DNA of 64,000 bases, from positions 1 through 64,000 of IMG/VR virus record IMGVR_UViG_3300036715_001574. One strand, given 5' to 3'. This DNA is from a virus. This document shows, piece by piece, positions 6,319 through 61,731 of this stretch (position 1 is its first letter; each line of letters starts with the position of its first letter). The notes below the pieces were generated by a model. It had not been told where the DNA came from. It did no database searches and was given only the letters and a program-made list of their open reading frames with translations. Both the position numbers and the translations under genes were made by a program.

Positions 6319-6462
6319 TATGTCTTACTTTTTATTCTTTAATATTAATTTTTATTTTTTTTGGTTATTAATTTTATATTCTGTTAAATTTGTGTTCCGA
6401 CTTCACCAGATGTTGATGTCTCATTTTTAACTGGTTCGAGAGCGGTAGTTGTTTGTTGAGTT
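6319..6462 (-). repeat. Direct repeat, copy 1, includes decayed gene start
   Basis: About 144 bases are closely similar to 6917-7060. The block spans the 3' end of one gene and what should be the start of the next. Here the part corresponding to the start of the 6384-6953 gene has lost its ATG and gained an in-frame stop, so a third gene copy downstream has decayed. Confidence 0.7.
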
Positions 6463-6953
6463 GTTTGTTGAGTTGTTATCCCTAATGCTTTATTTATCGC
6501 GTCGATAGTTTTTGGACCTATACGATTGTCTGTATCTAATCCTGATTGTTTATTAGTATTTAACCACTTTTGCATAGCCCTATTAGAGACAAAAGTCGCA
6601 TTTGTTGCTGTATTAGAGACAGGAGTCACATTTGTTGCTGTATTAGAGACAGGAGTCACATTTGTTGTAGTATTAGAAACAGGAGTCACATTTGTTGCTG
6701 TATTAGAGACAGGAGTCACATTTGTTGCTGTATTAGAGACAGGAGTCACATTTGTTGCAGTATTAGAGACAGGAGTCACATTTGTTGTTGTAGTAGAGAC
6801 AGGAGTCACATTTGTTGCAGTATTAGAGACAGGGATTTCCTCATCTTCGTATGGTCCCGCCTCTGAAATAATTTTTTTAATAGTTTTTTCTCTTTCTTTA
6901 GAATGCATTTTTAAGATATGTCTTACTTCTTCTTCATTAATATTAATTCTCAT
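6384..6953 (-). CDS. Internal-protein candidate: decapeptide repeats plus peptidoglycan-binding-like domain
   Basis: The 189 residues fall into three parts. Residues 1-31 form a basic/acidic helix ending KKIISE, a good match to the T4 gp21 prohead-protease rule (hydrophobic-x-Glu). Residues 41-126 are eight full copies plus a partial copy of a decapeptide PVSNTATNVT. Residues 127 onward (MQKWLNTNKQSGLDTDNRIG) look like a PG_binding_1 domain. The last 21 residues are almost the same as those of the neighbour at 6981-7820, so the two are duplicates. A virion protein matured by cleavage after Glu31 is inferred. The true function is unknown; a cell-wall-targeting role follows only from the domain. 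Confidence 0.65.
   Translation of the reverse strand: MRININEEEVRHILKMHSKEREKTIKKIISEAGPYEDEEIPVSNTATNVTPVSTTTTNVTPVSNTATNVTPVSNTATNVTPVSNTATNVTPVSNTTTNVTPVSNTATNVTPVSNTATNATFVSNRAMQKWLNTNKQSGLDTDNRIGPKTIDAINKALGITTQQTTQQTTTALEPVKNETSTSGEVGTQI
6576..6833 (-). repeat. In-frame 30-bp tandem repeat (8.5 copies)
   Basis: A 30-base unit encoding PVSNTATNVT repeats head to tail, with only scattered substitutions (for instance one copy reads STTTT). Near identity suggests recent expansion by slippage or unequal recombination. All copies stay in frame with the host gene. Confidence 0.9.
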
Positions 6954-7060
6954 TTTTTTAGTTATTAATTTTATATTCTATTAAATTTGTGTTCCGACTT
7001 CACCAGGTGTTGATGTCCCATCTTTAACTGGTTCGAGAGCGGTAGTTGTTTGTTGAGTCC
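6917..7060 (-). repeat. Direct repeat, copy 2
   Basis: This block matches 6319-6462 with few differences. It covers the 3' end of the 6981-7820 gene, the 27-base gap and the first codons of the 6384-6953 gene, marking the unit of a tandem gene duplication. Confidence 0.75.
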
Positions 7061-7820
7061 CCTTAGTTAATGCGTCGTAAATTGCCTTTCTAGTTTTTCG
7101 ACCTAAATACCCGTCTGGTACTAATCCTGAACTAAATTTAGCGTTTAAATTTTTTTGTAATTCGATAACACTTGGGTTTGGGGGTCTTTTTACTTTTGTT
7201 TGTACTAATTTAGGGTCAGATTTTTTTACTAATTTAGGTTCAGATAAAGATGGCTCAAATCCTTCTATTGGATGTGATTTTTGATATTTAATAATCTGCT
7301 CCGACATTGTTTTATTATCATATTTACCGAAGAGTCCTAAATTAAATGTCAAGTTTATACTTTCTGAGTCTAGTATAATTTTATCTGCCAGTTGTCCTGC
7401 ATATTTACCTCCTAAGAATTTAAATTTTGCACTAACATTTGTTGCCGAATCTGTGAACAAAATTGGATACCCACCATTTGTGGTTAAATCTTTATATATT
7501 ATCCAACTATTATTCCAATACATAAATGAGGAATCATCACCATTTGAGTTTTCCCATTTAACTGGGATACCATGTTTTGTTAGTACATTAAATAGTATTT
7601 TCCAATACCCTAATGGTCCATCACCATCTCTATTCCAACCTGTAGGTCCTTTGTAAAATAGGTCGTTACCAAGAGCATCCTTTCCTATCATTCCATAATT
7701 ATGCGTTTCTGCGTCAAAACCAACTTGTTCATTCAAGTTTAAATATCGTCTTTTAGCCGACTCGTGAAGATGACGAATAATTTTTTTTTCCTCGTCATTT
7801 GCAAAAATTAATTTTTTCAT
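6981..7820 (-). CDS. Internal-protein candidate with C-terminal peptidoglycan-binding-like domain
   Basis: The 279-residue paralogue of the 6384-6953 product. Its first 31 residues (EKKIIRHLHESAKRRYLNLNE) carry the same helix pattern as the neighbour and end LNE at position 31, again a match to the T4-type (I/L)-x-E cleavage rule. The middle section (about 35-200) is unlike anything recognised. Residues about 215-262 contain VIELQKNLNAKFSSGLVPDG then GRKTRKAIYDAL, a PG_binding_1-type pattern. The tail TALEPVKDGTSTPGEVGTQI nearly copies the neighbour's. It is the first gene after a terminator at 7934-7964. A virion-internal or wall-binding protein is inferred. Confidence 0.65.
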   Translation of the reverse strand: MKKLIFANDEEKKIIRHLHESAKRRYLNLNEQVGFDAETHNYGMIGKDALGNDLFYKGPTGWNRDGDGPLGYWKILFNVLTKHGIPVKWENSNGDDSSFMYWNNSWIIYKDLTTNGGYPILFTDSATNVSAKFKFLGGKYAGQLADKIILDSESINLTFNLGLFGKYDNKTMSEQIIKYQKSHPIEGFEPSLSEPKLVKKSDPKLVQTKVKRPPNPSVIELQKNLNAKFSSGLVPDGYLGRKTRKAIYDALTKGTQQTTTALEPVKDGTSTPGEVGTQI

Positions 7821-9546: not shown

Positions 9547-12500
9547 TTAAATATTTTCAAATGAAGCCCCTGTTGGTGTAATTAAGAATTCAATATCTAT
9601 AAATTCTAACGCCCTTGTAGGTTTTAAATAAATTTTACCTGTTAATGTGTTTCTGTCTAAATCTTCAGGTGAAGACGAAACAGTTACACGGAAATCATAT
9701 AAACCTCTATCTCTTCTAATTGAATCCAAAATAGGATTAACACTATCCAAGAATTGTTGTCTAACAACTTGGTCGTTTTGTTCAAATAATAATCTTACAG
9801 CTACTGCGGAAATTAACTTACGAGCTTGAAGTAACAATCTTCTCACATTCAATCTATTAAGTGCTGAGTCAGCAACTTGTAATGTTTTATTACCCCAAAT
9901 TACAGTTCCAACATCAGAGAAAGTTGCTATAGGATTTATTCTACCTTGATATAGTACATCTCTGTCGGTTTGTGTAAGTTTTTGTCTCGCCTTAATAGAG
10001 TTTACAAGTCCTCTAGTATAACCCGCAGATGCAAACCAAGGGAATGAAATGTTATCGGTTAAAGCTAAGTTTCTACAAACCTCACCTGTCGGAGGTAAAT
10101 AAATTTGTGTGTTATTAACAGTATCTCTTGTTAAAATCCAAGGGAAATAAGTTGCAGTATAGTTAGAGTCAATTCCTGTATTATTTAAATTGTCAACTGA
10201 TTCTTGAGGGTAAATAATGTCTAAAGGATTTGTTCCGTCTGGAGTATACATTCTATAATCAGGTGTGGTACAAATATAAACCGAATCCGCTCTTGAAAAT
10301 TGAATCATGTCTATCGCTTCCTCAACAAGGTTTGAGTTATTTACGTAGTCAATACTTGCACTTGCAAATATATTAATGTTAGTTGATTCTGGATTTGCAA
10401 ATGATAGAATACCAAGTAAATATGCGTAGTAGTCAGTATTCGCAAAATCTTGAGTATTGTTCTGAACCACAATTCTTTTAAACAATCCATCACCTGTTGC
10501 GGTTGGATATCTTGATGAAGGTGCAGTACCCGCCAAATAACCCGCAGCTCCTAATTGAAATCTATCTTCGTTAGTTCTCCACTCTCTATAAATGTCCCAA
10601 CCATCAAACCCACCAGCAAAACATAGTGTGTATTTTCTTGAATATATGAAATAATACGGATTTTCTTGTGTTTCTGGGTCACTTCTAAATTCAGCAGTAC
10701 CACATTCAAAAGCTGTTTGACCACTTGTCATTGATGTGTTAGCAATTGATACAACAGTTGCTCCTGAGTCCATATGGAAACCTTTACTAGTGTAATTCCA
10801 TTTAAATGAGTCAGTTGCCAAAGCCCAATTTGATTGAGGGTTTTGTTTTCCTTTATAAGTTAAAAATGACTCATCAATTCCATACTGTGTTGAGAACCCT
10901 AAATATGTTCTTCTTATAACATCTCCAGGAGATTCAACAGTATTTGAGCCACCAATAGGTGTTCCAAATGGTGGGTTAGCAATAACTTCTCCAGGGTAAT
11001 TATATTTTATTTTATATTTTGGATATGGTGATGGGTAAACCGAAGCGTCTTCATATTCTCTTTGTGTGTAACCACGGAAACCACAAGGTAGTGAGTCAAT
11101 TGGGTATTCATCTGCCATTTCAACCATAACATATCTTGAAATTAAGGCAAATTCACCATTAGATGAACCTATTTTTTTTCCAATAAAGTTATTTGATGCT
11201 GGGTCCATATTACAATTTGTGAATTTTTCAATTACAACTGGATTTGAGTCAGAGTCATAAAAATTTCTAATCATAACATCAAACGACATATTATTGTACG
11301 ATAAGTTAGCGATTGAAATTTTAACTTCAGTATTTGCATCATTTCCATCGGAAATTGATATGAATTTAAATAAATTATAAACTTGGTTACCTCTTAATTC
11401 AGAAACCAAATAAGGTGTTTCAGGTGATTGGTATTTTTCTAAATTCCAAGCAATTGATTGACTTGATTGACTTCTAGCGTCAGGTAGCGCAATTAAATCA
11501 CAATTTAATCCACGGATATAATTTTGACTATAAGCATAATTCAAACTTCCCTGATAAAGTTCTTCAACATAAATAGGAACCGCGTATCTTGATTTACCAA
11601 AATTATCAACACCTAATACTTTTGTAATATATTTTGACGAAGATGCACTTAATGACGTTTCAAATGAAAATGTTTTATTATCATTTGTTAAACCCGATAA
11701 TAAAAAAGATGAATAAGGTGATTCTGTAATACCTGAATATTGTCCAGTACAAACTATTTGTAAATTATTTGGAACCCAAGTATTATTATTATTGTAATCA
11801 ATACCAACCTCATAAACTGGACCATGGTCATTACTTCCGGCACTATTAACATAATTACAAATACCTCGTGAACGAATAGTACCAACAACCATATTATTGA
11901 AGTCAGTGTACGCCATACCTGTAAAATTAACGGAAGCTCCAGAAATAGTGACAGTAAAATTAGAATCCACAGTATTAATAACATTATCAATAACATAATA
12001 AAAAGAATAACCTGAATAATTGTTTCCTGAAGAAATATTAAAATTAGCATAAAGCCAAGGGTCGTTTGACGACGCAGATAAATCATTTTCTTCTAAGATA
12101 GGTACACAATCATATGGAGTTATTACATTAGGTCTTCCATATGTAAGATAATAATTGTCATCATAAAGTATTGAACCATATATAACTGATGTTGTTGCAG
12201 AAAGTGATGTCGTATTTACAATCTCACTTAAATAATTGTTAAAGTCGGTTTGTATTGTAGATGTTGAACCGTCTTGTAATTTATATTGTTTATTTAATTG
12301 AACTTGGTTTGGTAATGACCCACTTGCAATTCCAAATGTACCTCCCGATGATGTACCAGTAAACGTTGCGGTAAAAGCTACGGGATTTGATGGTGCAGAA
12401 ATAGTTGTTGGGTCAACATTAGCAACTAATGAAAGACTCCAAGATGGTCCTGCGTCATATCCAGACAATCCTAAAATTCTTGTTACAAACAATTGATTTG

Positions 12501-12768
12501 ATTGTTGTAAATATGATTTGGCAATATACGCCGCCTCATATTTTGGTATCTGAGTACCATAAAATTTAACGGGCTCTGTTCCACCAAAATATGATTGGAA
12601 TTCGTCAAAATTTGTTATGAATACTGGTTCAAATGCTGGACCTTTTAAAGTTTCTCCAACAAGGCCTAAAGTTGTTACCCCCACACTTTGGGCGATAAAT
12701 GATAAGTCGGTTTCCGATGTGTACACTCCAGGTGATACAAATACTTTTTGATTTGCTTGTGCTGCCAT
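9547..12768 (-). CDS. Tail sheath protein (gp18-like)
   Basis: The 1073-residue protein starts with VFVSPGVYTSETDLSF, the typical sheath N-terminus (SPGVY-x-x-E), followed by the GLVGETLKGPAFEP strand-turn. The C-terminal part has LNRLNVRRLLLQARKLI, QNDQVVRQQFLDSVNPIL and GLYDFRVTVSS, the conserved sheath C-terminal domain that forms the contractile mesh. It is much longer than T4 gp18 (659 residues); the extra length is in the middle, probably surface-exposed insertion domains. It contracts around the tube on infection. It shares a divergent start region with the small plus-strand gene at 12889. Confidence 0.95.
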   Translation of the reverse strand: MAAQANQKVFVSPGVYTSETDLSFIAQSVGVTTLGLVGETLKGPAFEPVFITNFDEFQSYFGGTEPVKFYGTQIPKYEAAYIAKSYLQQSNQLFVTRILGLSGYDAGPSWSLSLVANVDPTTISAPSNPVAFTATFTGTSSGGTFGIASGSLPNQVQLNKQYKLQDGSTSTIQTDFNNYLSEIVNTTSLSATTSVIYGSILYDDNYYLTYGRPNVITPYDCVPILEENDLSASSNDPWLYANFNISSGNNYSGYSFYYVIDNVINTVDSNFTVTISGASVNFTGMAYTDFNNMVVGTIRSRGICNYVNSAGSNDHGPVYEVGIDYNNNNTWVPNNLQIVCTGQYSGITESPYSSFLLSGLTNDNKTFSFETSLSASSSKYITKVLGVDNFGKSRYAVPIYVEELYQGSLNYAYSQNYIRGLNCDLIALPDARSQSSQSIAWNLEKYQSPETPYLVSELRGNQVYNLFKFISISDGNDANTEVKISIANLSYNNMSFDVMIRNFYDSDSNPVVIEKFTNCNMDPASNNFIGKKIGSSNGEFALISRYVMVEMADEYPIDSLPCGFRGYTQREYEDASVYPSPYPKYKIKYNYPGEVIANPPFGTPIGGSNTVESPGDVIRRTYLGFSTQYGIDESFLTYKGKQNPQSNWALATDSFKWNYTSKGFHMDSGATVVSIANTSMTSGQTAFECGTAEFRSDPETQENPYYFIYSRKYTLCFAGGFDGWDIYREWRTNEDRFQLGAAGYLAGTAPSSRYPTATGDGLFKRIVVQNNTQDFANTDYYAYLLGILSFANPESTNINIFASASIDYVNNSNLVEEAIDMIQFSRADSVYICTTPDYRMYTPDGTNPLDIIYPQESVDNLNNTGIDSNYTATYFPWILTRDTVNNTQIYLPPTGEVCRNLALTDNISFPWFASAGYTRGLVNSIKARQKLTQTDRDVLYQGRINPIATFSDVGTVIWGNKTLQVADSALNRLNVRRLLLQARKLISAVAVRLLFEQNDQVVRQQFLDSVNPILDSIRRDRGLYDFRVTVSSSPEDLDRNTLTGKIYLKPTRALEFIDIEFLITPTGASFENI

Positions 12769-14682: not shown

Positions 14683-16437
14683 ATGAGTAACGTTAGTTTA
14701 GAATCAAAGGCAATGTCCATTCTTGAGTCATATGAGGGTGGCAATAACTATATCTTGGAATTAAAACGTAAATCACAGGTTAATAGAAAATTTTATCCAA
14801 CAAGGAGCCAATCAGAATACATTATCAATTTTCACAATAAACAACCAAAAGTTGCAAAGAAATGGGTAATCCTTGACACATACTTTGCTCAGAAATTAGC
14901 CGACGACAAATTATATACCGAAATCCCCCAAAAAGTTTGGGTTGAGAAGTTATTAGCTGATAAAGAAAAGGCTTACCACATTTGGGGTAAGGTTTTTGAA
15001 AATGAAGAACTTCACGATTTTTGGTTACCAAAGGCCGCAATTATCAAAGACAATTCAGTTAAAGATGTGGTAATTGATTATTCAAAATATTCTCATCGTC
15101 CACCACTTGAACATCAAAAAGAAGCAATTCAAAAATTAGTTGAGAATAAAAAGTTTATCCTTGCCGATGATATGGGTCTTGGTAAAACAACCTCAACAAT
15201 TATCGCCGCGTTAGAATCAAATTCAAAAAAAGTATTAATTATTTGTCCTGCAACATTAAAAATTAACTGGAAACGTGAGATTGAAAATTACTCGGACAAA
15301 TCAATCTACATTGCAGAAAGTAAAAATTTCAGTACCGAAGCTGATTTTGTAATCATAAACTACGACATAATTAAAAATTTCCATGACCCTAAAAAGAAAA
15401 ACGAATCTCAAGTCCTTGCGTCCAACTTTGATTTAGTTATTATCGATGAAGCCCATTATATTAGGAATGGTACGGCGCAGAGGACGAAACTAATCAATGA
15501 TATTGTCAAAAATACCGAAAGACTTTGGTTGTTAACGGGTACACCAATGACATCACGGCCAATCGATTATTTTAATTTATTAAGTATAATTGATTCTCCT
15601 GTTGCAAAGAATTGGATGGCATACGCTATCCGTTATTGTTCTGGATACCAATTTAATGTTGGGGGAAGAAAGATTTGGAATGTAACAGGGGCGTCAAACT
15701 TGGAAGAGTTAAGAGACCGAACCTTAGGTTTAACATTAAGAAGATTAAAAGAAAATGTTCTTGATTTACCCGATAAGATTATCACACCTGTTTACCTAAG
15801 ATTGAAATCAAAATTATATGAAAATGTTATGGGAGAATACTATGATTGGTATGACAAGAACCCTGACGAATCCAAATCATTAACCGTTCAATTTTCAAAG
15901 TTAACAAAAATTAGACAAATTATTGCCGATGAAAAAATTGAACAAACTATTGAACTAGCGGAAAATATTCTTGAGCAAGATAAGAAAGTAATCATTTTCT
16001 GTAATTTCACCGATTCGTTAAATAAAATTACAGAACATTTTGGTAAAGCTGCAGTTAAACTTGATGGTTCTATGTCAAAACCCAACAGACAAAACTCCGT
16101 TGACCAATTCCAAGATAACCCCAAGATTAAAGTCTTTGTAGGTAATATTAAAGCGGCTGGTGTCGGTATAACATTAACTGCTGCTGAAGCTGTTATTATG
16201 AATGACTTATCATTCCTTCCATCAGACCACGCCCAAGCTGAAGACCGAGCTTATCGTTACGGTCAAAAAAATAACGTTTTGGTTTATTATCCAATATTCG
16301 AAAATACAATCGAAGGTATCATCTACGATATCCTAAACAACAAAAAACAAGTCATTGCAACTGTAATGGGAGACAACCAACATCCAGCAGATGCTGCAGA
16401 AGAAATCCTACAAAGAATTAATGAATTGAGATATTAA
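14683..16437 (+). CDS. SNF2-family DNA helicase/translocase
   Basis: The 584-residue protein carries all main SF2/SNF2 motifs: Q-like HQKEAIQ (144-150), Walker A MGLGKTT (164-170), IICPATLKINW (motif Ia region), DEAH (255-258), LLTGTP (283-288), and C-terminal GVGITLTAAE and QAEDRAYRYGQ (motif VI). The RYGQK form of motif VI marks it as SNF2-type, close to HARP/SMARCAL1-like annealing helicases. In T4-like phages a helicase of similar role (UvsW) reverses forks and controls origin use. It is divergently arranged from the neck gene and followed by the SOD fusion gene 41 bases later. Confidence 0.92.
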   Translation: MSNVSLESKAMSILESYEGGNNYILELKRKSQVNRKFYPTRSQSEYIINFHNKQPKVAKKWVILDTYFAQKLADDKLYTEIPQKVWVEKLLADKEKAYHIWGKVFENEELHDFWLPKAAIIKDNSVKDVVIDYSKYSHRPPLEHQKEAIQKLVENKKFILADDMGLGKTTSTIIAALESNSKKVLIICPATLKINWKREIENYSDKSIYIAESKNFSTEADFVIINYDIIKNFHDPKKKNESQVLASNFDLVIIDEAHYIRNGTAQRTKLINDIVKNTERLWLLTGTPMTSRPIDYFNLLSIIDSPVAKNWMAYAIRYCSGYQFNVGGRKIWNVTGASNLEELRDRTLGLTLRRLKENVLDLPDKIITPVYLRLKSKLYENVMGEYYDWYDKNPDESKSLTVQFSKLTKIRQIIADEKIEQTIELAENILEQDKKVIIFCNFTDSLNKITEHFGKAAVKLDGSMSKPNRQNSVDQFQDNPKIKVFVGNIKAAGVGITLTAAEAVIMNDLSFLPSDHAQAEDRAYRYGQKNNVLVYYPIFENTIEGIIYDILNNKKQVIATVMGDNQHPADAAEEILQRINELRY

Positions 16438-16478: not shown

Positions 16479-18008
16479 ATGAAAAAAACAGAAGAGAAAA
16501 TCCAACAATTAGAGTTACAGATACTTGAAAATCACGTAACCAAAGAAAAAGAGTTGTTGATTACAGAAATGAAAAAAATCGGAATAGAGAAACTACCTTA
16601 TTCCTACTCAGCCCTTAAACAATTTATTGACCCCGAAACCATGAGTTTCCATTACAATAAACATTACAAAGGGTATGTTGATAAACTAAACGACGCATTA
16701 TCAAAGAAAAAATACGGAGATTTAGATTTAGAAAAAATAATTAAAACAATCAGTCGTTTTGATAAGACAATTCGAAACAACGCAGGTGGAGCATTTAACC
16801 ACGCTTTGTTTTGGAATATGTTAACTCCCGAACCAAAAAAACTAACTGGTGAACTTTATACAAAAATCACCAAACAGTGGGGAACATTCACAAACTTTAA
16901 AAAAGAATTTGAAAAACAAGCCAAAGACCGTTTTGGTTCAGGTTGGGTCTGGTTAATTCTAACCTCTAATAACACTTTAAAGATTATGTCAACTCCAAAC
17001 CAAGATAATCCATTAATGAATGTGATTGAAGGTGGTGGGTTTCCATTGTTGGGGTTAGATTTATGGGAACACGCTTATTATTTGAAGTACCGAAATAAAA
17101 GAGACGAATACATAACAAACTTTTGGAAAGTTGTTAATTGGGAATTTGTAACTAAAATGTACGAAATGAGAGTTGAAACCAAAATAACAGAATCTACCAA
17201 AATGAAACAAATATTAAATGAAGGTAAATCTGAAATGTGTTCAAAATCTGATAACGAATTTTACAGAATGTTATTCAACGTAAATCAAGATATTAAATGG
17301 ACTTACATGAATGGTATCAATAGAATCCTCAAAGAAGTTTTTAATGAAAATTATATTGAAATTCCTCCAAATAATCAATTACCGGGTATTTATGATATTG
17401 AGGGACCTGGTAGGTCAGTAATTAATAAACTCAACACAAATTACACGGCATTTTGTATTTTATTAAAAGATTTAAATCAAGTTATTACAACTATACCAAA
17501 TAAAAAACCAATTGTTTTTACCGATAAAACTCCTGCAGAACAGAAAAAAGAAGTTGAGAGATTTGTAAATGCATTAGGACATTTTAAATATAGAATATTT
17601 GATAAACAAAGTTCAACATTTATTAATTTATTAAGAACCTTAACAGAAAAAAATAATGCAGGTGATAAAAGAGAACAAATTACGTTATCAATCCTTAAAA
17701 GATTTTTTGGTCAAAAAGCAAAAGTTGAGTTGGTTGGTGAGTTAGGAAACAAAAAAGATGCAATTCAAGGTGTTGATTTAGAAATATTTAAAGATGGTAA
17801 GTTACACACCGCACAAGTTAAACCATTTAGAGAAATGAAAAAAACTGAAAGTGGAATTGAATTGGAGGGTACCGCAAGTGTTAAATTATATAAAACGGAT
17901 TGGATGGTTTTTCAACGAGGAAAGAATGTTTTAGTGTTTGATAAAAAACCAAAAATTGTTGGTGGTAATTTTGTTTTTCCACTTGATTCACTTTTATATA
18001 GTATATAA
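16479..18008 (+). CDS. Superoxide dismutase fused to nuclease-like C-terminal domain
   Basis: Residues about 39-230 form a complete Fe/Mn superoxide dismutase: LPYSYSALKQFID, TMSFHYNKHYKGYV, NNAGGAFNHALFWN, FGSGWVWLI, TPNQDNPLM and GLDLWEHAYYLKY. The four metal ligands are present (His58, His108, Asp194, His198). Gly-Gly at 103-104 with Gln175 is the manganese-type signature. After a linker with KMKQILNE (a possible prohead-protease site at Glu248) come about 260 more residues with no SOD similarity. There, Glu399, Asp433 (GVDLEI) and AQVK (445-448) resemble a PD-(D/E)xK nuclease core. The first 38 residues are a charged coil. The frame is continuous across both parts, so this is a true fusion. 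Confidence 0.85.
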   Translation: MKKTEEKIQQLELQILENHVTKEKELLITEMKKIGIEKLPYSYSALKQFIDPETMSFHYNKHYKGYVDKLNDALSKKKYGDLDLEKIIKTISRFDKTIRNNAGGAFNHALFWNMLTPEPKKLTGELYTKITKQWGTFTNFKKEFEKQAKDRFGSGWVWLILTSNNTLKIMSTPNQDNPLMNVIEGGGFPLLGLDLWEHAYYLKYRNKRDEYITNFWKVVNWEFVTKMYEMRVETKITESTKMKQILNEGKSEMCSKSDNEFYRMLFNVNQDIKWTYMNGINRILKEVFNENYIEIPPNNQLPGIYDIEGPGRSVINKLNTNYTAFCILLKDLNQVITTIPNKKPIVFTDKTPAEQKKEVERFVNALGHFKYRIFDKQSSTFINLLRTLTEKNNAGDKREQITLSILKRFFGQKAKVELVGELGNKKDAIQGVDLEIFKDGKLHTAQVKPFREMKKTESGIELEGTASVKLYKTDWMVFQRGKNVLVFDKKPKIVGGNFVFPLDSLLYSI

Positions 18009-18032: not shown

Positions 18033-19148
18033 ATGTCAGTTATACCAGAACCAGAAAGGTCAAAAATTTATACGAGAATAAAACATCTATTGGGTGCACC
18101 ATTAAGAAGTGTTGAAGTCACTGATGAAATGATGGATTCGTTAATGGAATTATCCATTCAAGATTACGAACAGTATATCTTGAATTGGTTAATTGATAGT
18201 CAATGGGTTAACTTGGTTAATCTTAATATGAGTGAAAAATCTGTTGCTCAAGCGTTAATCACAAGAACAATGGATTTTGAAAAACAATTCTCATATTCAT
18301 ACTCAAAAATTGTGGGGCTTCAAGCTGAAGGTCCTTGGGTATTAAAAAAAGATTATATTGTTCTTGAAAAAAACAAACAGAACTACGAAATCCCTGCAGG
18401 TCGTGAAATAAATGAAGTGCTATGGTTTAGTAATCGACCTATTACCGCATTTGGTATGGGAGGTATTGGTGCTGGAGCAGGTCTTGGTGCAAATGAAGCT
18501 GGTTTTGCCCAAGTGGGTAATCAGGGTTCTTATTATATGATGTCAGGGTTTGATTACTTGATAAGAATGCAAGAAGCGAATATTATAAAAAGAATCCTTG
18601 GTGGTTCTTTAACTTATAGAATTACTGCATTACCTGATGGTAAAAAAGATTTACAGTTATACAATGCGCCTGGTAGTCGATTTAATTGGAGTAATTATAG
18701 TCAATACGTTGGTAATGCTGTTTGGTATTGGTACTACGATGTAACACCTGATAGTAGAGCAGATTGTTTAAAAAATAATCCTGACGTAATTAAAATGCCA
18801 AACGAAGTTCCTTTAGAAGAAATGAATTGGGTTGACTTAAATGTTCCCGCACAACAATGGGTAAGAAGATGGTTCACCGCATATGTTAAAGAAACGTTAG
18901 GTCGAGTTAGAGGAAAATACAGTGGAAATTTAAAGGCTCCTGATTCAGAATTAACAATGGACTACACAAGTTTATTAACTGAAGGTAAAGACGAAAAGAC
19001 AAAGTTGATTGAAGAATTGACAGGGGCTGAAGGTTGGTTAACAAGATTACGTCCTGAAAAAGTGATGGAAAAAGAAGCGTTACTCGCAGAAAATCTAAAT
19101 AAACAAATGAAATTCAGAGCAATGCCTCGTCAAATATATGTAATTTAA
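18033..19148 (+). CDS. Neck protein (gp13-like)
   Basis: The 371-residue protein contains WFTAYVKETLGRVRGKYSG followed by a P-x-x-x-LTMDYTSLL segment and EGKDEKTKLIEELT. The pattern (KE-x-LG-x-(I/V)R-x-KYSG, then a LT-x-D-x-x-x-LL stretch and a long amphipathic helix) is characteristic of T4-type gp13 neck proteins. The middle has a Gly-rich loop (GMGGIGAGAGLGANEAG), unusual for the family and probably flexible. It would plug the portal after packaging and join the tail. Its partners gp14- and gp15-like lie 3.4 kb away on the other strand, separated by helicase and SOD genes. Confidence 0.7.
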   Translation: MSVIPEPERSKIYTRIKHLLGAPLRSVEVTDEMMDSLMELSIQDYEQYILNWLIDSQWVNLVNLNMSEKSVAQALITRTMDFEKQFSYSYSKIVGLQAEGPWVLKKDYIVLEKNKQNYEIPAGREINEVLWFSNRPITAFGMGGIGAGAGLGANEAGFAQVGNQGSYYMMSGFDYLIRMQEANIIKRILGGSLTYRITALPDGKKDLQLYNAPGSRFNWSNYSQYVGNAVWYWYYDVTPDSRADCLKNNPDVIKMPNEVPLEEMNWVDLNVPAQQWVRRWFTAYVKETLGRVRGKYSGNLKAPDSELTMDYTSLLTEGKDEKTKLIEELTGAEGWLTRLRPEKVMEKEALLAENLNKQMKFRAMPRQIYVI

Positions 19149-43493: not shown

Positions 43494-46400
43494 TTAATAA
43501 GACCTAATTGCTCTAACTCTCCTAGATTCACTCTTAACAATCGTTTCTATTAATGGGTTATGTTGTGGACTACCACCCATATTAAAGAAGATATAATTCA
43601 CTTGAGTATCATCAATCTGAGTAGAACTCAAATAATCTCCTTCAACAAATCCACCAAAACCATTTCTAATATCCCATACTTTTTCTAATTCATCTGCACT
43701 TGGTAGATACCAATCGTTATATCCATTTTGTGATAAATCTGAACACAATCTAGCAGCAATTCCCGCAGTAGCACATCCACTTACTATATCTATGGTGTTT
43801 TGATTACCTGTTCCAATTGTAGTTCCACTAGCTCCTACTAATAGAGTACCCGGACAACCCCAAATTGCAGAACCTGAAACATCTGTTGTTGTAACAACTA
43901 AACCATGTTGGACATTTACGTCATATCCTGAATCTCCAGGTTGTAATATGTAAGCGATATAACCACCTAAAGCTGAGTCACCTAAGGTATAATTACATCC
44001 GTTAGGGTCTGATGTAGTAACTTCTCCAAGACCACCAGTAACGTTATACCAAGCAATTCCGTTAGAATAATAACCATTTGAAACTGGTGTTGTTAATGCG
44101 GTATTAGAATATAAAAATTCACCTACGTTTGGACCAGGTCCTCCCGCAACACTACCATAAACTAAATTTGGTGTTCCTGGGTTATATGCCATACATGCAT
44201 CAATTGCCGCAAGTCCATCATATCCTAAATTATATGTATAATATGCAATTGTTGGTGTTGGTGTTGAAGTTTTTGTAGGTGTGTTAGTTGGTGTTTTAGT
44301 TACTGTAGGTGTATTAGTTGGTGTTGAAGTTTTTGTAGGTGTGTTAGTCGGTGTTGAAGTTTTAGTTACGGTTGGTGTTGAAGTTTTAGTTACGGTTGGT
44401 GTTTGAGTTACGGTTGGTGTGTTAGTTGGAATTAATGAACAAAGTGAGAATCCACCAGTTTCCTCTCCTGTTAAAAGTAATTGAACAACTTTACCTGAAT
44501 TTGTATAGTATCCTGACATGTCAGTTGTAACTGGTCCTAATAATGAATCATAAAATAAGACATTTAGGTCAAAAGTTGCGTTATCACCATATATTGTTAT
44601 TGGGGTAATACCATTACATGAATCATAAGATGTTGCACCTTTATATACACTAAAACTAAATCTAGTGTGTGTTGGTGTATTAGTTACGGTTGGAGTAACT
44701 GTTGGAGTATTTGTTGGTGTTGCAGTATTTGTCGGTGTAACAGTATTTGTCGGTGTAACAGTATTTGTTGGTGTTTGTGTACTTGTTTTTGTTGGTGTTT
44801 GTGTTGGAAATAATAAACATCCATTAGGGTCTGATGTTGTAACTTGTCCAAAACCACCAGTAACGTTATACCAAGAAAATCCATCTTTAGAATAATAACC
44901 ATCTGGAACTGTTGTTGATAATGCGGTATTAGAATATAAAATTTCACCTACGTTTGGACCAGGTCCTGCGGCAACACTACCATAAACTAAAGATGGAGAA
45001 GCATAACATGCCGCATATGCGGTTGATGCATCATATCCTAAATTATATTCATAATATGCAAATGTCGCTGTAGGTGTTGAAGTATTGGTTGGAGTAACTG
45101 TAGGTGTTGAAGTTTTAGTTGGAGTAACTGTAGGTGTTGAAGTTTGAGTTACGGTTGGTGTGTTAGTTGGAATTAATGAACAAAGTGAGAATCCTCCAGT
45201 TTCATATCCTGTTAAAAGTAATTGAACAACTTGACCTGAATTTGTATAGTATCCTGACATGTCAATTGTAACTGGTCCTAATAATGAATTATAAAAGAAC
45301 TGATTTTCATCATAAGTTGAATCATCACCATATATTGTTATTGTTGTTGTGTTAATACCATTACATGAATCATAAGCTGTTGCACCTTTTGTTACAAGAA
45401 AAGGAAATCTAGCATGTGTTGGAGTAACAGTTGGTGTTACAGTATTTGTTGGTGTTTGAGTTTGAGTAGGTGTTTTAGTTTGAGTAGGTGTTTTAGTGTT
45501 AGTTGGAGTTTGTGTTGTAGTCTTAGTTGGTGTTTGTGTATTTGTTGGTGTCTGTGTTGAAGTTGGAATTGATAAACATCCGTTAGGGTCTGATGTAGTA
45601 ACTTGTCCAAGACCACCAGTAACGTTATACCAAGCAAGCCCATCTTTAGAATAATAACCATCTAAAACTGGTGTTGTTAATGCGGTATTAGAATATAAAA
45701 ATTCACCTACGTTTGGACCAGGTCCTCCCGCAACACTACCATAAACTAAAGATGGAACAGCAAAACATGCGTCATATATTGATGTACCATAACCTAAATT
45801 ATATGTATAATACGCAAATGTTGCTGTAGGTGTTGAAGTATTTGTTGGTGTTACAGTTTGTGTTACAGTATTTGTTGGTGTATTAGTTGGTGTATTAGTT
45901 GGTGTTGGTGTTGGAGTATTTGTAATTATCAACGAACAAAGTGAGAATCCTAAAGTTTCATATCCTGTTGGAAGTAATTGAACTACTTGACCTGAATTTG
46001 TATAGTATCCTGTCATGTCAGTTGTAACTGGTCCTAATAATGAATCATAAAAGAACGTATTTTGGTCAAAAGTTGAGTCATCACCATATATTGTTATTGG
46101 GTTAATACCATTACATGAATCATAAGCTGTTGCACCTTTTGTTACACTAAAACTAAATCTAGTTTTTGTTGGAGTAACGGTTGGTGTTACAGTATTTGTT
46201 GGAGTATTTGTTGGTGTTGAAGTTGAAGTTTGAGTATTTGTTGGAGTGTTTGTTGGTGTTTGTGTTTGCGTTTGAGTACTAGTTTGCGTTTGAGTATTAG
46301 TTGGTGTTTGAGTATTTGTTGGTGTAACAGTATTTGTCGGTGTAACAGTATTTGTTGGTGTAACAGTATTTGTTGGTGTTTGAGTATTTGTTGGTGTTTG

Positions 46401-46781
46401 AGTATTTGTTGGTGTCTTAGTATTTGTTGGTGTTGGTGTTTTAGTATTTGTTGGTGTTTGAGTATTTGTAGGCGTTTGTGTTTGTGTTGAAGTTTGAGTA
46501 GGAGTTTGTGTTTGTGTTGCAGTATTTGTTGGTGTATTTGTTGGCGTTGAAGTTGGTGTATGAGTTGGGAAAATAGGTGGAAAAGCACCATTATCAACTA
46601 AAACAATACTAGAATAAAATAAAGGTGAGGTTGAATAAGTATTGTTAATTAACCAAATTGTTTTAGTTTCATTTTGGGTCAATTCCGTTTGGTACTCCCA
46701 CATAGAATCGTCGCATCGTCTATAGTTAAAATTTACTATAGTTGAGCCAGTATTTGTTAAGGTATATTTGCTACAAGCCAT
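43494..46781 (-). CDS. Mucin-like repeat fibre protein with lectin-like C-terminus
   Basis: The 1095-residue protein starts with a small N-terminal module (about 1-75), then a long Pro-Thr-Asn/Gln linker (PTNTPTNT and variants, to about 205). Two domain types then alternate three times, each joined by PT-rich linkers. Type A begins FSFSVTKGATAYDSCNG and type B begins YTYNLGYG and ends TSDPNGC. The end has NDWYLPSADELEKVWD and RRVRAIRSY, a DUF1566/FGE-like lectin fold. It is likely a tail fibre or head fibre that binds a surface glycan. Linkers are rich in Thr, so could be O-glycosylated by the transferase gene next door. A TATTTATA motif lies 15 bases upstream. Confidence 0.8.
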   Translation of the reverse strand: MACSKYTLTNTGSTIVNFNYRRCDDSMWEYQTELTQNETKTIWLINNTYSTSPLFYSSIVLVDNGAFPPIFPTHTPTSTPTNTPTNTATQTQTPTQTSTQTQTPTNTQTPTNTKTPTPTNTKTPTNTQTPTNTQTPTNTVTPTNTVTPTNTVTPTNTQTPTNTQTQTSTQTQTQTPTNTPTNTQTSTSTPTNTPTNTVTPTVTPTKTRFSFSVTKGATAYDSCNGINPITIYGDDSTFDQNTFFYDSLLGPVTTDMTGYYTNSGQVVQLLPTGYETLGFSLCSLIITNTPTPTPTNTPTNTPTNTVTQTVTPTNTSTPTATFAYYTYNLGYGTSIYDACFAVPSLVYGSVAGGPGPNVGEFLYSNTALTTPVLDGYYSKDGLAWYNVTGGLGQVTTSDPNGCLSIPTSTQTPTNTQTPTKTTTQTPTNTKTPTQTKTPTQTQTPTNTVTPTVTPTHARFPFLVTKGATAYDSCNGINTTTITIYGDDSTYDENQFFYNSLLGPVTIDMSGYYTNSGQVVQLLLTGYETGGFSLCSLIPTNTPTVTQTSTPTVTPTKTSTPTVTPTNTSTPTATFAYYEYNLGYDASTAYAACYASPSLVYGSVAAGPGPNVGEILYSNTALSTTVPDGYYSKDGFSWYNVTGGFGQVTTSDPNGCLLFPTQTPTKTSTQTPTNTVTPTNTVTPTNTATPTNTPTVTPTVTNTPTHTRFSFSVYKGATSYDSCNGITPITIYGDNATFDLNVLFYDSLLGPVTTDMSGYYTNSGKVVQLLLTGEETGGFSLCSLIPTNTPTVTQTPTVTKTSTPTVTKTSTPTNTPTKTSTPTNTPTVTKTPTNTPTKTSTPTPTIAYYTYNLGYDGLAAIDACMAYNPGTPNLVYGSVAGGPGPNVGEFLYSNTALTTPVSNGYYSNGIAWYNVTGGLGEVTTSDPNGCNYTLGDSALGGYIAYILQPGDSGYDVNVQHGLVVTTTDVSGSAIWGCPGTLLVGASGTTIGTGNQNTIDIVSGCATAGIAARLCSDLSQNGYNDWYLPSADELEKVWDIRNGFGGFVEGDYLSSTQIDDTQVNYIFFNMGGSPQHNPLIETIVKSESRRVRAIRSY
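43985..46165 (-). repeat. Three ~750-bp repeats within fibre gene
   Basis: Units of A domain, linker, B domain, linker recur with a spacing of about 750 bases (A domains end near 46165, 45418 and 44668). Near-identical segments within them show recent duplication. Confidence 0.8.
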
Positions 46782-46795
46782 TTTAGATATTTTAT

Positions 46796-46803
46796 TATAA
46801 ATA
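46796..46803 (-). promoter_or_regulatory. TATTTATA motif before mucin-like fibre gene
   Basis: The minus strand reads TATTTATA 15 bases before the start codon at 46781. Confidence 0.4.
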
Positions 46804-46913
46804 CTACGTTATTTTATATTATTATAAATATTTGTTTATTCTTTAATAATTTTTAATACTTAATAAAATTTTTATAGTACAATTTATTTATTTGTCGAAG
46901 TAACTGTTCGTGT

Positions 46914-47414
46914 TTAAGTCCTTGTTGGAGTAACTGTTGGTGTTTGTGTATTTGTTGGCGTAACAGTATTTGTTGGCGTAACAGTATTAGTTGGTGTTGA
47001 TGTATTTGTTGTAGTATTTGTTGGAGTATTAGTTGGTGTTGATGTATTTGTTGGAGTGGCGGTTGGTGTTGATGTTGCGGTTGGAGTTAATCCCGTTGTT
47101 GCTGTTGGTGTAACTGTTTTTGTTGGTGTTGGTGTAACTGTTGTTGTTTTTGTTGGTGTTGGTGTAACAGTATTTGTTGGTGTTGGTGTTGGTGTAACCG
47201 TTGGTGTTGGTGTTGGGCCAGGAACATTTAAAGAATATGTATAACCATATGTTGGAACATAACAATCGTATATACCATAATAATAACTTGAGATATAATT
47301 AAATGGAAAAACTTTAGAACCTAAATCAATAGTCCCACCGGTATCTGGTAAATACGTAACATTTGTGGTTTGACCACTCAAATTATCACTTAAAATTCTT
47401 ACTCCTATCGCCAT
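46914..47414 (-). CDS. Fibre-like protein with PT-rich tail, probably truncated
   Basis: The 166-residue protein has a small N-terminal domain (to about 65, ending [11 protein letters not shown]) and then a PT-rich repeat ([14 protein letters not shown] and on) to the end. The last codons read TPTRT and a TAA. The same frame continues after the stop with T-R-T-V-T-S-T-N-K and then a second TAA at 46884-46886, so the stop looks like a recent nonsense change (CAA to TAA would restore TQT). No C-terminal binding domain remains. An AATAAATA element lies 4 bases before the ATG (minus TATTTATT). Confidence 0.75.
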
Positions 47415-52817: not shown

Positions 52818-54035
52818 ATGGAAAAAAAAATTAATGTTTTAGTTATCCCTAGCGATAAAACTGGTGTTGGAAAATTTCGTTCAATAGACCCTCATATTTT
52901 TTTACAAAATTTATATTCTGATGAATTTCATGTTGATATTATATTTGACCCACAGTATGATGATATGGTCTTTTGGTCTAAATATCAAATAGTGGTATTC
53001 CATAGAAGTATTGGTTCTGATTTTGAAAAAGCCCGTGAATTAATTCAAAAATTAAATTTATTAGGGATAATCACTGTTGCTGATATTGATGATTATTGGA
53101 TGCCAGGTAAAGAACACCCAATTCATGATATTATTAAATTTAATAAGATTAATGAAAAAATTGTCTCAAATCTTAAAGTCGCAACATATATTACAACAAC
53201 AACTGAAATATTTGCAACTGAAATTAGAAAATTTAATAAAAATGTTTTTGTTTTTCCAAACGCAATTAATCCAAATGAAACACAATTTAAAGAACCAACA
53301 TTAGAATCAGACCGATTAAGAATTGGTTGGTTAGGAGGCTCTTCTCATTTACATGACATTCAATTATTAGACCAATCTTTTAATAAGATTATTAATCTTA
53401 AAGATAAATTACAATTTGTTTTATGTGGTTTTGATACTAGAGGAACCGTAACGGAAATTAATAACCAAACAGGTGAACATAATAAAAGAGATATTTTGCC
53501 ACATGAGACTGTTTGGGCTCAGTACGAAAAAATATTTACTCAAAACCATGTATTGGTGTCGGAAGACTACAAAAAGTATTTATTAAACTATACTCAAGAG
53601 GTTTACCCAAATCAATATGACGAATCATATGTAAGAGTTTGGACTCAACCTGTAACATCTTACGCTAAAAATTATTCAAAATTTGATGTATCTTTATCAC
53701 CAATTAAAAATACAATGTTTAATAGAATGAAATCACAATTAAAAGTAATTGAAGCGGGATTTTATAAAAAAGCTCTTATTGCATCTGATTTAGGACCATA
53801 TACAATAGATTTAAAACATTGTTTAAATCACGGTAACTTTGTTGATGGAAACGCAATGTTAGTTGATGAAAATAGAAATCACTCTGATTGGGCGAAACAT
53901 ATTAAAAAATTAGTTGAGAACCCTAACATGGTAAAAGATATGGGGGAAAGATTATATGAAACTGTTAAAGACAAGTATGATTTAAATAACGTAACAAAAG
54001 ATAGAAGAGCCTTTTATTTATCAATAATTAAATAA
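52818..54035 (+). CDS. GT-B glycosyltransferase (GT4-like)
   Basis: The 405-residue protein has a GT-B layout: an N-terminal half with VADIDDYWMPG and a central NVFVFPNAINP that marks the domain boundary, then RIGWLGGSSHLHDIQLL at the start of the donor half. The last part has SQLKVIEAGFYKKALIASD, the GT4 E-x-x-x-x-x-x-x-(P/L)-(V/I)-(A/I) motif. It is the first gene of the plus-strand operon after the promoter at 52749. The donor is undecided. Confidence 0.8.
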   Translation: MEKKINVLVIPSDKTGVGKFRSIDPHIFLQNLYSDEFHVDIIFDPQYDDMVFWSKYQIVVFHRSIGSDFEKARELIQKLNLLGIITVADIDDYWMPGKEHPIHDIIKFNKINEKIVSNLKVATYITTTTEIFATEIRKFNKNVFVFPNAINPNETQFKEPTLESDRLRIGWLGGSSHLHDIQLLDQSFNKIINLKDKLQFVLCGFDTRGTVTEINNQTGEHNKRDILPHETVWAQYEKIFTQNHVLVSEDYKKYLLNYTQEVYPNQYDESYVRVWTQPVTSYAKNYSKFDVSLSPIKNTMFNRMKSQLKVIEAGFYKKALIASDLGPYTIDLKHCLNHGNFVDGNAMLVDENRNHSDWAKHIKKLVENPNMVKDMGERLYETVKDKYDLNNVTKDRRAFYLSIIK

Positions 54036-54041
54036 TATAAT

Positions 54042-54743
54042 ATGATTAACATACCATTAACCAAAATTTTATTTTTAGATATTGAAACTGTCGGAATACA
54101 ACCTGATTGGGATTCATTAGTTAAAAACAACGAATCCCTTTCATTTCAATTTGAACACTATTTTGATTGGTTTCAAAAAAGATTTCCTGAAGATGGGGCT
54201 AATGGAGTCTCTCAAATGTTTGTCAATCGTTCTGCCTTAGTTCCCGAATTTGCAAGAATTGTTTGTATTAGTGTTGCATTTGTAACTGAAAGTGGCGAAA
54301 TTAAAATGCAATCATTTAGTAATGCTGATGAGAAAAAAATGTTATTAGATGTTCAAAAACTTTTACATAGAGTTGGAGAACTAGGATTTTTTTTATGTGG
54401 ACATAATGTAAAGGGATTTGACATCCCTATGTTAGCAAAACGAATGATTATGAATGGAATTATGCCACCAAAAATTTTACCTGGTCACGACACTAAACCG
54501 TGGGAAATTAAAGCTTTAGACACAAAAGAAGTTTGGCAATACGGTGGATATGGTTCTATTGCGTCTCTTGAACTTATGTGTGTTTGTTTGGGTGTTGAGT
54601 CATCAAAAACAATGGAGATAACAGGGAATAAAGTACATGAAGCTTTTTGGATTAAAAAGGATATTGAGGGAATTGTAAAGTATTGTGAAAAGGATGTGTC
54701 CGTATTAATTGAAGTAATAAAAAAATTAATAGATTTAAAATAA
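54042..54743 (+). CDS. DEDD-type 3'-5' exonuclease
   Basis: The 233-residue protein has Exo I LFLDIETVG (Asp, Glu), Exo II GHNVKGFDIPML (Asp) and Exo III YCEKDVSVL (Tyr-x-x-x-Asp), the DEDDy set. Such stand-alone exonucleases, related to polymerase B exonuclease domains, occur in Bacteroidota and phages. It lies between glycosyltransferase and dUTPase genes and overlaps the dUTPase start by 1 base. A role in DNA repair or processing of replication ends is likely. Confidence 0.85.
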   Translation: MINIPLTKILFLDIETVGIQPDWDSLVKNNESLSFQFEHYFDWFQKRFPEDGANGVSQMFVNRSALVPEFARIVCISVAFVTESGEIKMQSFSNADEKKMLLDVQKLLHRVGELGFFLCGHNVKGFDIPMLAKRMIMNGIMPPKILPGHDTKPWEIKALDTKEVWQYGGYGSIASLELMCVCLGVESSKTMEITGNKVHEAFWIKKDIEGIVKYCEKDVSVLIEVIKKLIDLK

Positions 54744-55372
54744 TGAAAAATTTAAATAATATGGGATTTGACCCAAAAATTTATAATGACATTCTTGAAA
54801 AATTTGAAAAAATTAAATTTGACGCTGGAATAGAACCAGATGAAGAATCTCAAAAAGAACTTGAAGAACTTTTTGGAGTTGATTTAGAGGGTTTTGAAGA
54901 TTTAGATGATGAGTTTTTTAAAAATTCTCAGACACGAACTATTGAAGTTGAATTAATTCACAAAGATGCTGTTTTCCCAAAATATGCATACCTATCCGAT
55001 TCAGGATTTGATTTACACTCAACACAAGATTTAGAAATTAAACCATTTGGCAGAATTTTAGTCCCAACAGGGATTAAAGTTTCTTTTGAGAAAGGTTATG
55101 AACTTCAAATTAGACCTAAAAGCGGTTTAGCAATTAAACAAGGATTAACCGTTCTTAATACACCAGGAACTGTAGACCAAGGATATACAGGTGAAATACA
55201 AGTAATTGTGTTTAATACAAATAACCATTCCGTAATGATTTCAAAAGGAATGAAAGTTGGACAAGCAGTTCTATGTCCTGTCATAAATGGGGAATATGTT
55301 AGATTTGAAAAAGTTGACCAACTTGATGAAAAAGATAGAGGTGATAATGGATTTGGAAGTACGGGAATTTAA
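54743..55372 (+). CDS. dut: dUTP diphosphatase with N-terminal extension
   Basis: The C-terminal 150 residues contain the five dUTPase motifs: SDSGFDLHS (1), RPKSGLAIK (2), NTPGTVDQGYTGEI (3), KGMKVGQAVL (4) and DRGDNGFGSTG (5). The enzyme hydrolyses dUTP to dUMP and keeps uracil out of DNA. The first 60 or so residues are an acidic extension (PDEEESQKELEELFGVDLEG) absent from usual dUTPases; it may bind a partner. The gene is coupled to the exonuclease by a TAATG overlap. Confidence 0.95.
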   Translation: MKNLNNMGFDPKIYNDILEKFEKIKFDAGIEPDEESQKELEELFGVDLEGFEDLDDEFFKNSQTRTIEVELIHKDAVFPKYAYLSDSGFDLHSTQDLEIKPFGRILVPTGIKVSFEKGYELQIRPKSGLAIKQGLTVLNTPGTVDQGYTGEIQVIVFNTNNHSVMISKGMKVGQAVLCPVINGEYVRFEKVDQLDEKDRGDNGFGSTGI

Positions 55373-55382
55373 ATATTAAATA

Positions 55383-57011
55383 ATGATTACAGTAGGATAT
55401 TCAACAAGAGAACATAACCCCCAATTTATCGAGTACTTAAAAAAAAGTTCGGGGTTTAAAAAAATAGAAGTTATTGAAAAGATTAATAACGGAGAGAAAT
55501 CATTATCTCAAATTTATAATGAAATTCTTGAGGAATCAAAAACTGACATAGTAGTTCTTTGTCATGATGACATTTACTTTGATACATCAAGTTGGTTCCA
55601 CAAAATTAAAACTCATTTTGAAAAAACTGATTACGGTATCTTAGGTGTTGCGGGTACTACCAACATGCCAGAAACAGGTAGATGGTGGGATTCAAGAAAC
55701 ACCATGATTGGCATTGTTAACCATGAGAGTGAAGGAAAAAAATGGACATCAAAATACTCTGATGATTTAGGTAAATCAATTAAACCGACTGTTATTGTTG
55801 ATGGTGTGTTTATTGCGTTAAGTAAATCAAAAATTAAACATACTTTTGACGAGGAGTTTGAAGGGTTCCATTTTTATGACATTGCATTTTGTTATAGGAA
55901 TTACATAGAAAATGTTAAGGTTGGTGTTATCACAAACGTTAGAATCACTCACAAGTCAATTGGTCAGACCAATCAACAATGGGAAGATAATAGAGAATTT
56001 TTTGTTAAAAAATATGGGGAGAACTTACCATCAAAAATTCCGTTTGATGTTAATAAACGATTAAAGGTTTTATTGTCTTGTATCTCTTTTAGAAACTTTA
56101 CAGGTTCTGAGTTATATGTTTTTGAATTAGCGAAAAGTTTAATCAAATTAAACTGTAGTGTTACGGTTCTTTCACAAATTGGTGGACCTGTGACTGACAT
56201 GGCAAAAAAACTTGGAATTAAATGTGTGTCATTTGAAAACGCTCCAGGTTTCAAACTTGGTGATGGACAATGGGGAACGAATACACCTGAAGGGTTCAAA
56301 CCATCAACACCAAACGCGTTATATAGAGTTTCTGAAGTTGATTATGATATTGTTCATTTCCAACACAAGCCTGTTGCGGAAAGAATTTTAAATATGTATC
56401 CTGAATTACCTAAGATTTGTGCGATTCACTCTGAGGTTATTTCATTAGAAGACCCTGTTGTTGACCCAACAATTAAAAAATATGTCGCAATTCGTCCTGA
56501 AATTAAGGAACACATGATGAACAATTTTGAAATACCTGAAGAAATGATTGAAGTTATTTATAATCCTGTTGATAATGAAAAATTTAAATCTTTGAATACA
56601 ACTGAAAAAGATTATGTTTTATTTGTTGGTACTATAGATTATTTGAGAAAAGAAACCATTTTAGATTTAATCGAATACACAAGAGAGATTGGAAAAGAAC
56701 TTTGGTTGGTTGGTGATAATAATGGAAATTATTTAGAAAATGTATTACTTGAACAACATGTTAAGTATTTTCCGGCAACATGGAACATAGAAAAATTTAT
56801 TTTAGATGCGTATGAAACCGCAGGAATTCAATTAGGTAGAACAACCATCGAAAGTTGGATGTGTGGTAAATCAAGTTGGATTTATAAAGTAGACTCTGGC
56901 GGATTTATTTTATCTAAAGAAAAACATGAACCACCAACAGACATTGAAAAGTATTATTCCATGAATGTTGCACAACAAATAAAAGAACAATACCTCAAAA
57001 TTTTATCATAA
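55383..57011 (+). CDS. Bifunctional GT2 + GT4 glycosyltransferase
   Basis: The 542-residue protein joins two transferases. Residues 1 to about 215 form a GT-A unit with NNGEKSLSQIYNEILEES, VVLCHDDIYFD (the DD site) and TVIVDGVFIALSKSKI. From about 220 a GT-B unit starts with RLKVLLSCISFRNFTGSELY, has VSQIGGPVTDMAKKLG-like and AIHSEVISL marks, YNPVDNEKFKSL at the domain boundary and LGRTTIESWMCGKSS in the donor part. The two may add consecutive sugars. It ends with the next ATG directly abutting its stop. Confidence 0.8.
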   Translation: MITVGYSTREHNPQFIEYLKKSSGFKKIEVIEKINNGEKSLSQIYNEILEESKTDIVVLCHDDIYFDTSSWFHKIKTHFEKTDYGILGVAGTTNMPETGRWWDSRNTMIGIVNHESEGKKWTSKYSDDLGKSIKPTVIVDGVFIALSKSKIKHTFDEEFEGFHFYDIAFCYRNYIENVKVGVITNVRITHKSIGQTNQQWEDNREFFVKKYGENLPSKIPFDVNKRLKVLLSCISFRNFTGSELYVFELAKSLIKLNCSVTVLSQIGGPVTDMAKKLGIKCVSFENAPGFKLGDGQWGTNTPEGFKPSTPNALYRVSEVDYDIVHFQHKPVAERILNMYPELPKICAIHSEVISLEDPVVDPTIKKYVAIRPEIKEHMMNNFEIPEEMIEVIYNPVDNEKFKSLNTTEKDYVLFVGTIDYLRKETILDLIEYTREIGKELWLVGDNNGNYLENVLLEQHVKYFPATWNIEKFILDAYETAGIQLGRTTIESWMCGKSSWIYKVDSGGFILSKEKHEPPTDIEKYYSMNVAQQIKEQYLKILS

Positions 57012-58172: not shown

Positions 58173-58173
58173 C

Positions 58174-58323
58174 ATGGAAATAAGAGTATTAGTAATCAAC
58201 CTAAATAACAAAGATTATACAAAGAATTGTATTAACTCATTAATTAATCAAAAGTGTAAAAATTTTATGATGACTAGAATAATTGGAAATAACCCCCTTA
58301 AAAAACACCATATTAATTTATAA
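58174..58323 (+). pseudogene. Truncated GT2 N-terminus
   Basis: The 49-codon frame encodes VLVINLNNKDYTKNCINSL with NQKCKNF, the first strand and helix of a GT2 glycosyltransferase. It then ends in unrelated residues and a stop that overlaps the next start (TAATG). The rest of the enzyme is missing. It could still be translated as a peptide. Confidence 0.75.
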
Positions 58324-59787: not shown

Positions 59788-59806
59788 AAAATAAATTAAA
59801 CACATT

Positions 59807-60730: not shown

Positions 60731-60739
60731 TTAGTATAT

Positions 60740-61714: not shown

Positions 61715-61731
61715 AACTTTAAATTAAAATA

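Follow-up and report, generated by a model that had tools for sequence, protein, structure and literature searches.

A superoxide dismutase fused to a putative nuclease in a T4-like large phage: a candidate cargo polyprotein with conserved prohead-protease motifs at its domain borders

The prohead protease of bacteriophage T4, gp21, cuts after the glutamate of the motif L/I-x-E, and its substrates reach the prohead via short N-terminal capsid-targeting sequences (CTS) (PMC9026906). Foreign enzymes fused to a CTS, including staphylococcal nuclease, are packaged and delivered by T4 (PMC9026906). In the chlorovirus PBCV-1, a Cu/Zn superoxide dismutase (SOD), A245R, is packaged in the virion, and a reduced superoxide level in early infection has been linked to it (PMC7019647). 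The text on phiKZ and SPN3US head proteins describes no SOD or nuclease polyprotein in these large phages (PMC5694885). Here we analyze a gene for a 509-residue protein that joins an SOD to a putative nuclease, located in a 64,000-nucleotide stretch of viral DNA (positions 1 to 64,000 of IMG/VR record IMGVR_UViG_3300036715_001574; hereafter, the window). We propose, with a probability of about 0.7, that this protein is a cargo polyprotein, modular in build, which a large T4-like freshwater phage matures with its prohead protease, packages, and probably ejects. The coordinates of the gene, its parts, and its neighbors are given in Table 1.

Table 1. Features of the window discussed in the text (positions in nucleotides of the window)
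Feature	Position	Strand	Basis or remark
SOD-nuclease gene (candidate cargo polyprotein)	16479..18008	+	509 aa, single open frame
Propeptide at the N-terminus (residues 1-30; helix by prediction), ending LITE30/M31 (first [L/I]-x-E site)	16479..16568	+	LI[TSA]E/M in 70/70 distinct sequences
Mn-type superoxide dismutase domain	16584..17168	+	residues 36-230; Pfam PF00081/PF02777 and PDB matches
Linker between the domains, containing the [L/I]-x-E sites KITE238/S and ILNE248/G	17184..17225	+	kept in nearly all 70 distinct fused sequences; pLDDT <50 at 235-250
PD-(D/E)xK-type nuclease domain (putative)	17223..18005	+	residues 249-509; AlphaFold model, Foldseek to 2ost and 1gef, stand-alone homologues
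Putative nuclease active site, E399, D433, Q446-x-K448	17673..17822	+	invariant in 21 fused homologues and aligned stand-alone homologue
SNF2-type helicase, upstream neighbor	14683..16437	+	PF00176, PHROG 62; constant slot flank
Head-tail adaptor-like protein, downstream neighbor	18033..19148	+	PHROG 211; constant slot flank
Contractile tail sheath	9547..12768	-	PF17482, PHROG 23; T4-like myovirus structural region

The N-terminal half of the protein is matched by the Pfam models Sod_Fe_N (residues 36-115, 3e-22) and Sod_Fe_C (residues 123-226, 2e-39), and solved Mn-SODs such as 6gsc align with it over the full SOD length (2e-57). In the 6gsc alignment the metal ligands correspond to H58, H108, D194, and H198, all of which are invariant among 21 fused homologues, and without residues 1-30 the chain has the N-terminus of an ordinary SOD. 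The combination of G103-G104 with Q175 is of the Mn type and suggests manganese as the metal of this putative enzyme. An earlier reading of the DNA, made from the letters alone (the sequence-only reading), had called the domain an Mn-type SOD from the four ligands and the Gly-Gly/Gln pair, and both the Pfam matches and the structural alignment confirm it.

The C-terminal region of about 260 residues has no match in Pfam, in PHROGs, or among PDB sequences, and neither a profile search of the PDB nor a search of bacterial genomes with this part found relatives. The AlphaFold model of residues 240-509, for which the alignment input consisted of 21 relatives, has a mean pLDDT of 88 with disorder confined to the first 12 residues. 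The best solved Foldseek match of this model is I-Ssp6803I (2ost, probability 1.00, E 1.7e-3), followed by the Holliday resolvase Hjc (1gef, probability 0.93), although the TM-scores to both structures are only 0.4-0.5. A multiple comparison of 21 diverse homologues reveals three invariant stretches, G395-x-K-R-E399, G431-x-D433, and T444-x-Q446-x-K448, which together hold the E...D...(E/Q)-x-K signature, and the residues of this signature are the same in an aligned stand-alone homologue. Fold and signature thus give good support to a putative PD-(D/E)xK nuclease whose activity is predicted. The sequence-only reading had pointed to a PD-(D/E)xK-like continuation of the frame and had named structure prediction as one way to check it; the model contains the nuclease core.

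A database search of IMG/VR yields hundreds of relatives, and at least 285 ORFs with 70 distinct sequences have the same single-frame fusion. Given this number of ORFs, the single frame, and a constant synteny, we rule out a chance or assembly chimera. The fusion gene lies between the SNF2-type helicase and the head-tail adaptor-like gene in 48/48 loci with full flanks, and the adaptor-like gene is followed in these loci by a 111-aa gene and then by a family B DNA polymerase. Both domains are under strong purifying selection (dN about 0.02-0.23 versus dS about 0.35-2.6). We found no two-gene form in close relatives. In L377/L378 (2884-4520) a change of frame close to a poly-A run separates the SOD part from the nuclease part, which we read as a frameshift or sequence error rather than as two genes. 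Separate production of the nuclease from an internal start at M242 is unlikely because this Met is replaced by Phe or Leu in many relatives (L168, L157, L476). The best SOD identities, about 45-50%, are with Bacteroidota; this is only a hint at the host, and we do not claim Bacteroidota as such.

The 509-residue protein has conserved [L/I]-x-E sites at residues 28-30 (LITE30), 236-238 (KITE238), and 246-248 (ILNE248). Among the 70 distinct fused sequences, nearly all have an [L/I]-x-E that follows TK in the linker, and in almost all a [VILM]-x-E precedes [GAS]K, so that the cleavage site suspected between the two parts in the sequence-only reading is real as a motif. In the model of the full-length protein, the only segments of at least three residues with pLDDT below 50 are 30-47, 235-250, and 421-423. 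The linker stretch MKQILNE resembles a capsid-targeting sequence; the 30-residue propeptide at the N-terminus has no clear likeness to the 10-residue CTS of T4, a point against the cargo reading. The motif is short and any single site carries little weight. We counted border sites in 77 non-redundant viral SOD ORFs and in sequence shuffles. An [L/I]-x-E lies at most 24 residues upstream of the SOD core in 76/77 distinct ORFs, compared with a mean of 58 and a maximum of 69 in shuffles. At most 45 residues downstream of the SOD, the motif is present in all 66 ORFs in which another domain follows, compared with a mean of 35 and a maximum of 46 in shuffles. Chains in which nothing follows the SOD lack the downstream site and serve as a built-in control. 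In the proteins of these phages more generally, N-terminal [L/I]xE[AGS] is enriched (28 observed; 12.6 on average in shuffles, s.d. 3.4). Two proteins encoded elsewhere in the window (6384-6953 and 6981-7820, both on the minus strand) have [L/I]xE-rich N-termini and a common C-terminal peptidoglycan-binding-like repeat, and the first of these also contains degenerate TPVSNTATNV tandem repeats.

The phage group has a T4-type capsid and a protease of the gp21 family. A Gp23-type major capsid protein (PF07068, 5e-72) is encoded in the same 77-kb record at about 74.5-76.3 kb, outside the window, and carries SFLINE/AS at about residue 60, which we take to be the counterpart of the maturation cleavage site of T4 gp23. 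The 77-kb record, itself a fragment, lacks a gene for the prohead protease (Peptidase_S77), which counts against the cargo reading; in the relatives G001 and G004 (182 and 107 kb) this gene is located beside the portal and capsid genes. Of 14 contigs that carry SOD modules or stand-alone nucleases, 11 have Peptidase_S77 matches, some below the curated cut-off. The tail sheath encoded in the window is, at 1073 residues, long for a sheath, and its sheath-family match is limited to the C-terminal part, which suggests a large N-terminal insertion. The window also contains a large set of sugar-nucleotide and glycosyltransferase-type genes (22677-43402 and 52818-62481), amid which repeat-rich proteins are encoded at 43494-47414 (PHROG 15511 repeats), and a GC-skew switch near 44 kb.

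In contrast to the close relatives, all 285 of which are fused, distant phages encode the two parts separately, and the proviso of the sequence-only reading that relatives might have two separate genes therefore holds for the latter (nuclease alone in 10 loci, SOD alone in L329 and L341) and fails for the former. The nuclease occurs alone at nine viral loci and in LR745206 (634,780 bp), whose protein matches the fused family in a profile comparison with a probability of 95.6 and an E-value of 1.2e-8. All 10 stand-alone nucleases start with a T4-like CTS that ends in [L/I]-x-E at residue 8-11 (MKKFTEYIKE/S, MLNYKEYLKE/[SA], MLQFKEFIKE/N, MIKKYSSYINE/S, and MKWIKLNE/S); an [L/I]-x-E with its Glu at residues 8-13 is found in only 10% of the ORFs of this phage group. 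Examples include L244 (4494-5249) and L409-L417. No SOD was found in LR745206 or in the other stand-alone-nuclease records tested, most of which contain Gp23 and a diverged S77-like protein. Two contigs, a viral one of 222 kb and one binned as Fluviicola, encode an SOD alone with the N-terminus MNLKIVDILRE/GLKDK. We dropped the idea that the latter, which holds the nearest single SOD, is cellular, as the 222-kb IMG/VR contig carries the same SOD. The Fluviicola-binned contig (L324/L325, JAJTEO010000009.1) has the look of a large phage, with M...[L/I]xE at the start of many of its proteins; it also encodes histone-like proteins rich in lysine and a secreted protein of the T9SS type. The SOD of L329 has a clear CTS-like N-terminus of about 10 residues. 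The SOD of L341 is located in the same gene slot without an N-terminal [L/I]-x-E site, which counts against the cargo reading given that an SOD can then stay in this slot without being packaged. In phage PA5oct, the SOD-like gp223 (L294:2956-3504, NC_071039) is recorded as "hypothetical, ESI-MS/MS", and its SOD ligand pattern looks degenerate.

A search with the single SOD that starts MNLKIVDILRE uncovered further phages in which the SOD is embedded in proteins of 289-962 residues, almost all of them encoded in the same slot between helicase and adaptor. Many of these proteins have an N-terminal domain with the sequence LAHEWVHEYQ, a putative metallopeptidase by its HExxH motif, and the C-terminal partner of the SOD is absent, a nuclease of the type found in the window, or one of two other nuclease-like types. 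Pfam and PHROGs gave nothing solid for the partner domains, and for this reason we name them by motif only. Polyproteins with the N-terminal HExxH domain are encoded, for example, in L330 (2533-4584) and L385 (2575-4683); that of L396 (2902-5529) has no HExxH domain and has both further PD-(D/E)xK-like types after the SOD. We suggest tentatively, and with slightly less than even confidence, that SOD, putative metallopeptidase, and several kinds of nuclease, strung together in this one slot, enter the head in a single chain that the prohead protease separates, and that, once injected together, they dampen the host's oxidative and DNA-based responses.

For the protein in the window, we posit a polyprotein that is probably made late. 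Capsid-targeting sequences, provided by residues 1-30, the linker, or both, would draw the chain into the prohead core, where a gp21-type prohead protease would cut after E30, E238, and E248. Cleavage would release an Mn-SOD of about residues 31-238 and a PD-(D/E)xK nuclease of residues 249-509; both would sit beside the genome in the mature head and probably accompany it into the host. There, the SOD may lower superoxide during entry and early infection, and the nuclease may cleave the DNA of the host or of a rival, or structured DNA, as infection starts. The suggestion of a virion protein, already present in the sequence-only reading, thus gains support, with packaging itself inferred from sequence features. 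The same reading had also considered a stable chimera that couples radical scavenging to DNA repair or cleavage; a cut precursor fits better because the sites flank the SOD, the stand-alone nucleases have CTS-like N-termini, and the partners of the SOD are exchanged in the slot.

One form of such a chimera would be a bifunctional enzyme in which SOD and nuclease stay joined, for example, in order to shield DNA from superoxide during processing. This would agree with the retention of a one-frame fusion in all 285 close relatives; however, the partner of the SOD varies or is missing in the same slot, stand-alone nucleases are found in phages without an SOD in their records, and the two domains meet in a disordered segment with a conserved protease motif. 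We regard a permanently joined enzyme as quite unlikely. Unlikely, too, is a protein of the infected cell that never enters the virion, that is, an auxiliary SOD with a DNA-processing nuclease in which the [L/I]-x-E sites are coincidental or serve another protease. The stand-alone SOD-like genes of Vibrio phage 2.275.O and PA5oct do lie among metabolic or chaperone genes, and the gene adjoining the fusion encodes a helicase, but the gene on the other side is head-tail adaptor-like, the sites exceed the shuffles and vanish when no partner follows, and the stand-alone nucleases have CTS-like starts. In addition, the ESI-MS/MS mark on gp223 of PA5oct may mean that this protein was detected in particles.

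The sites might instead be used to destroy the chain, which would then be a scaffold-like core component with enzyme domains as remnants, in the manner in which gp21 cuts T4 core proteins into small pieces (PMC9026906). We consider this highly improbable: the SOD ligands and the catalytic residues of the nuclease are invariant, selection on both domains is strongly purifying, and the conserved sites fall between the domains and not inside them. A cargo polyprotein that is cut into working enzymes remains our preferred reading. If it is correct, these phages provide a natural counterpart of the engineering of T4 with CTS-fused enzymes, in which several enzymes share one chain and its modules can be exchanged. 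Phages could then bring a ready-made antioxidant into the cell, which would point to superoxide as an obstacle at entry, and the rule of [L/I]-x-E sites at domain borders would be a means to predict injected proteins in unannotated large phages.

The sequence-only reading knew of no such fusion. This stands for the open-licence papers searched, in which we found no description of an SOD-nuclease fusion or of such a multi-enzyme chain, but not for the databases, given that a 501-aa protein of the same type is already in UniProt (A0A6J5L953, uncultured Caudovirales phage). This protein is annotated as "superoxide dismutase" only, shares the C-terminal fold of the 509-aa protein (Foldseek among viral models: TM 0.87, 34% identity), and is evidently the same fusion. 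Among solved structures, the C-terminal domain shares the PD-(D/E)xK core with I-Ssp6803I and archaeal Hjc, its best matches, and differs from them by a low overall TM-score and by an additional N-terminal part that is large and helical. Head proteins that are directed by a CTS and matured by a protease are themselves familiar from T4, phiKZ, and SPN3US; what we did not find in the open-licence papers is a chain of an SOD with exchangeable nucleases, and we know of no SOD or PD-(D/E)xK cargo in T4.

As with the T4 internal proteins IPI-III and Alt (PMC9026906), the system combines a packaging signal with [L/I]-x-E cleavage, both predicted here from sequence, the phage group has a capsid and a protease of the T4 type, and the enzyme cargo would be host-directed; the stand-alone relatives even begin with a CTS-like decapeptide. 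Unlike the T4 internal proteins, two or more enzymes share one chain with sites between them. phiKZ and SPN3US are likewise large phages, with many head proteins that are cleaved and ejected, as we posit here, but their motifs are A-x-E in SPN3US and, among others, S-x-E in phiKZ (PMC5694885). PBCV-1 A245R offers an analogy for a virus-encoded SOD that may scavenge superoxide at entry, with packaging predicted in our case, yet that enzyme is a stand-alone Cu/Zn SOD of an algal virus rather than part of a fusion cut by a protease.
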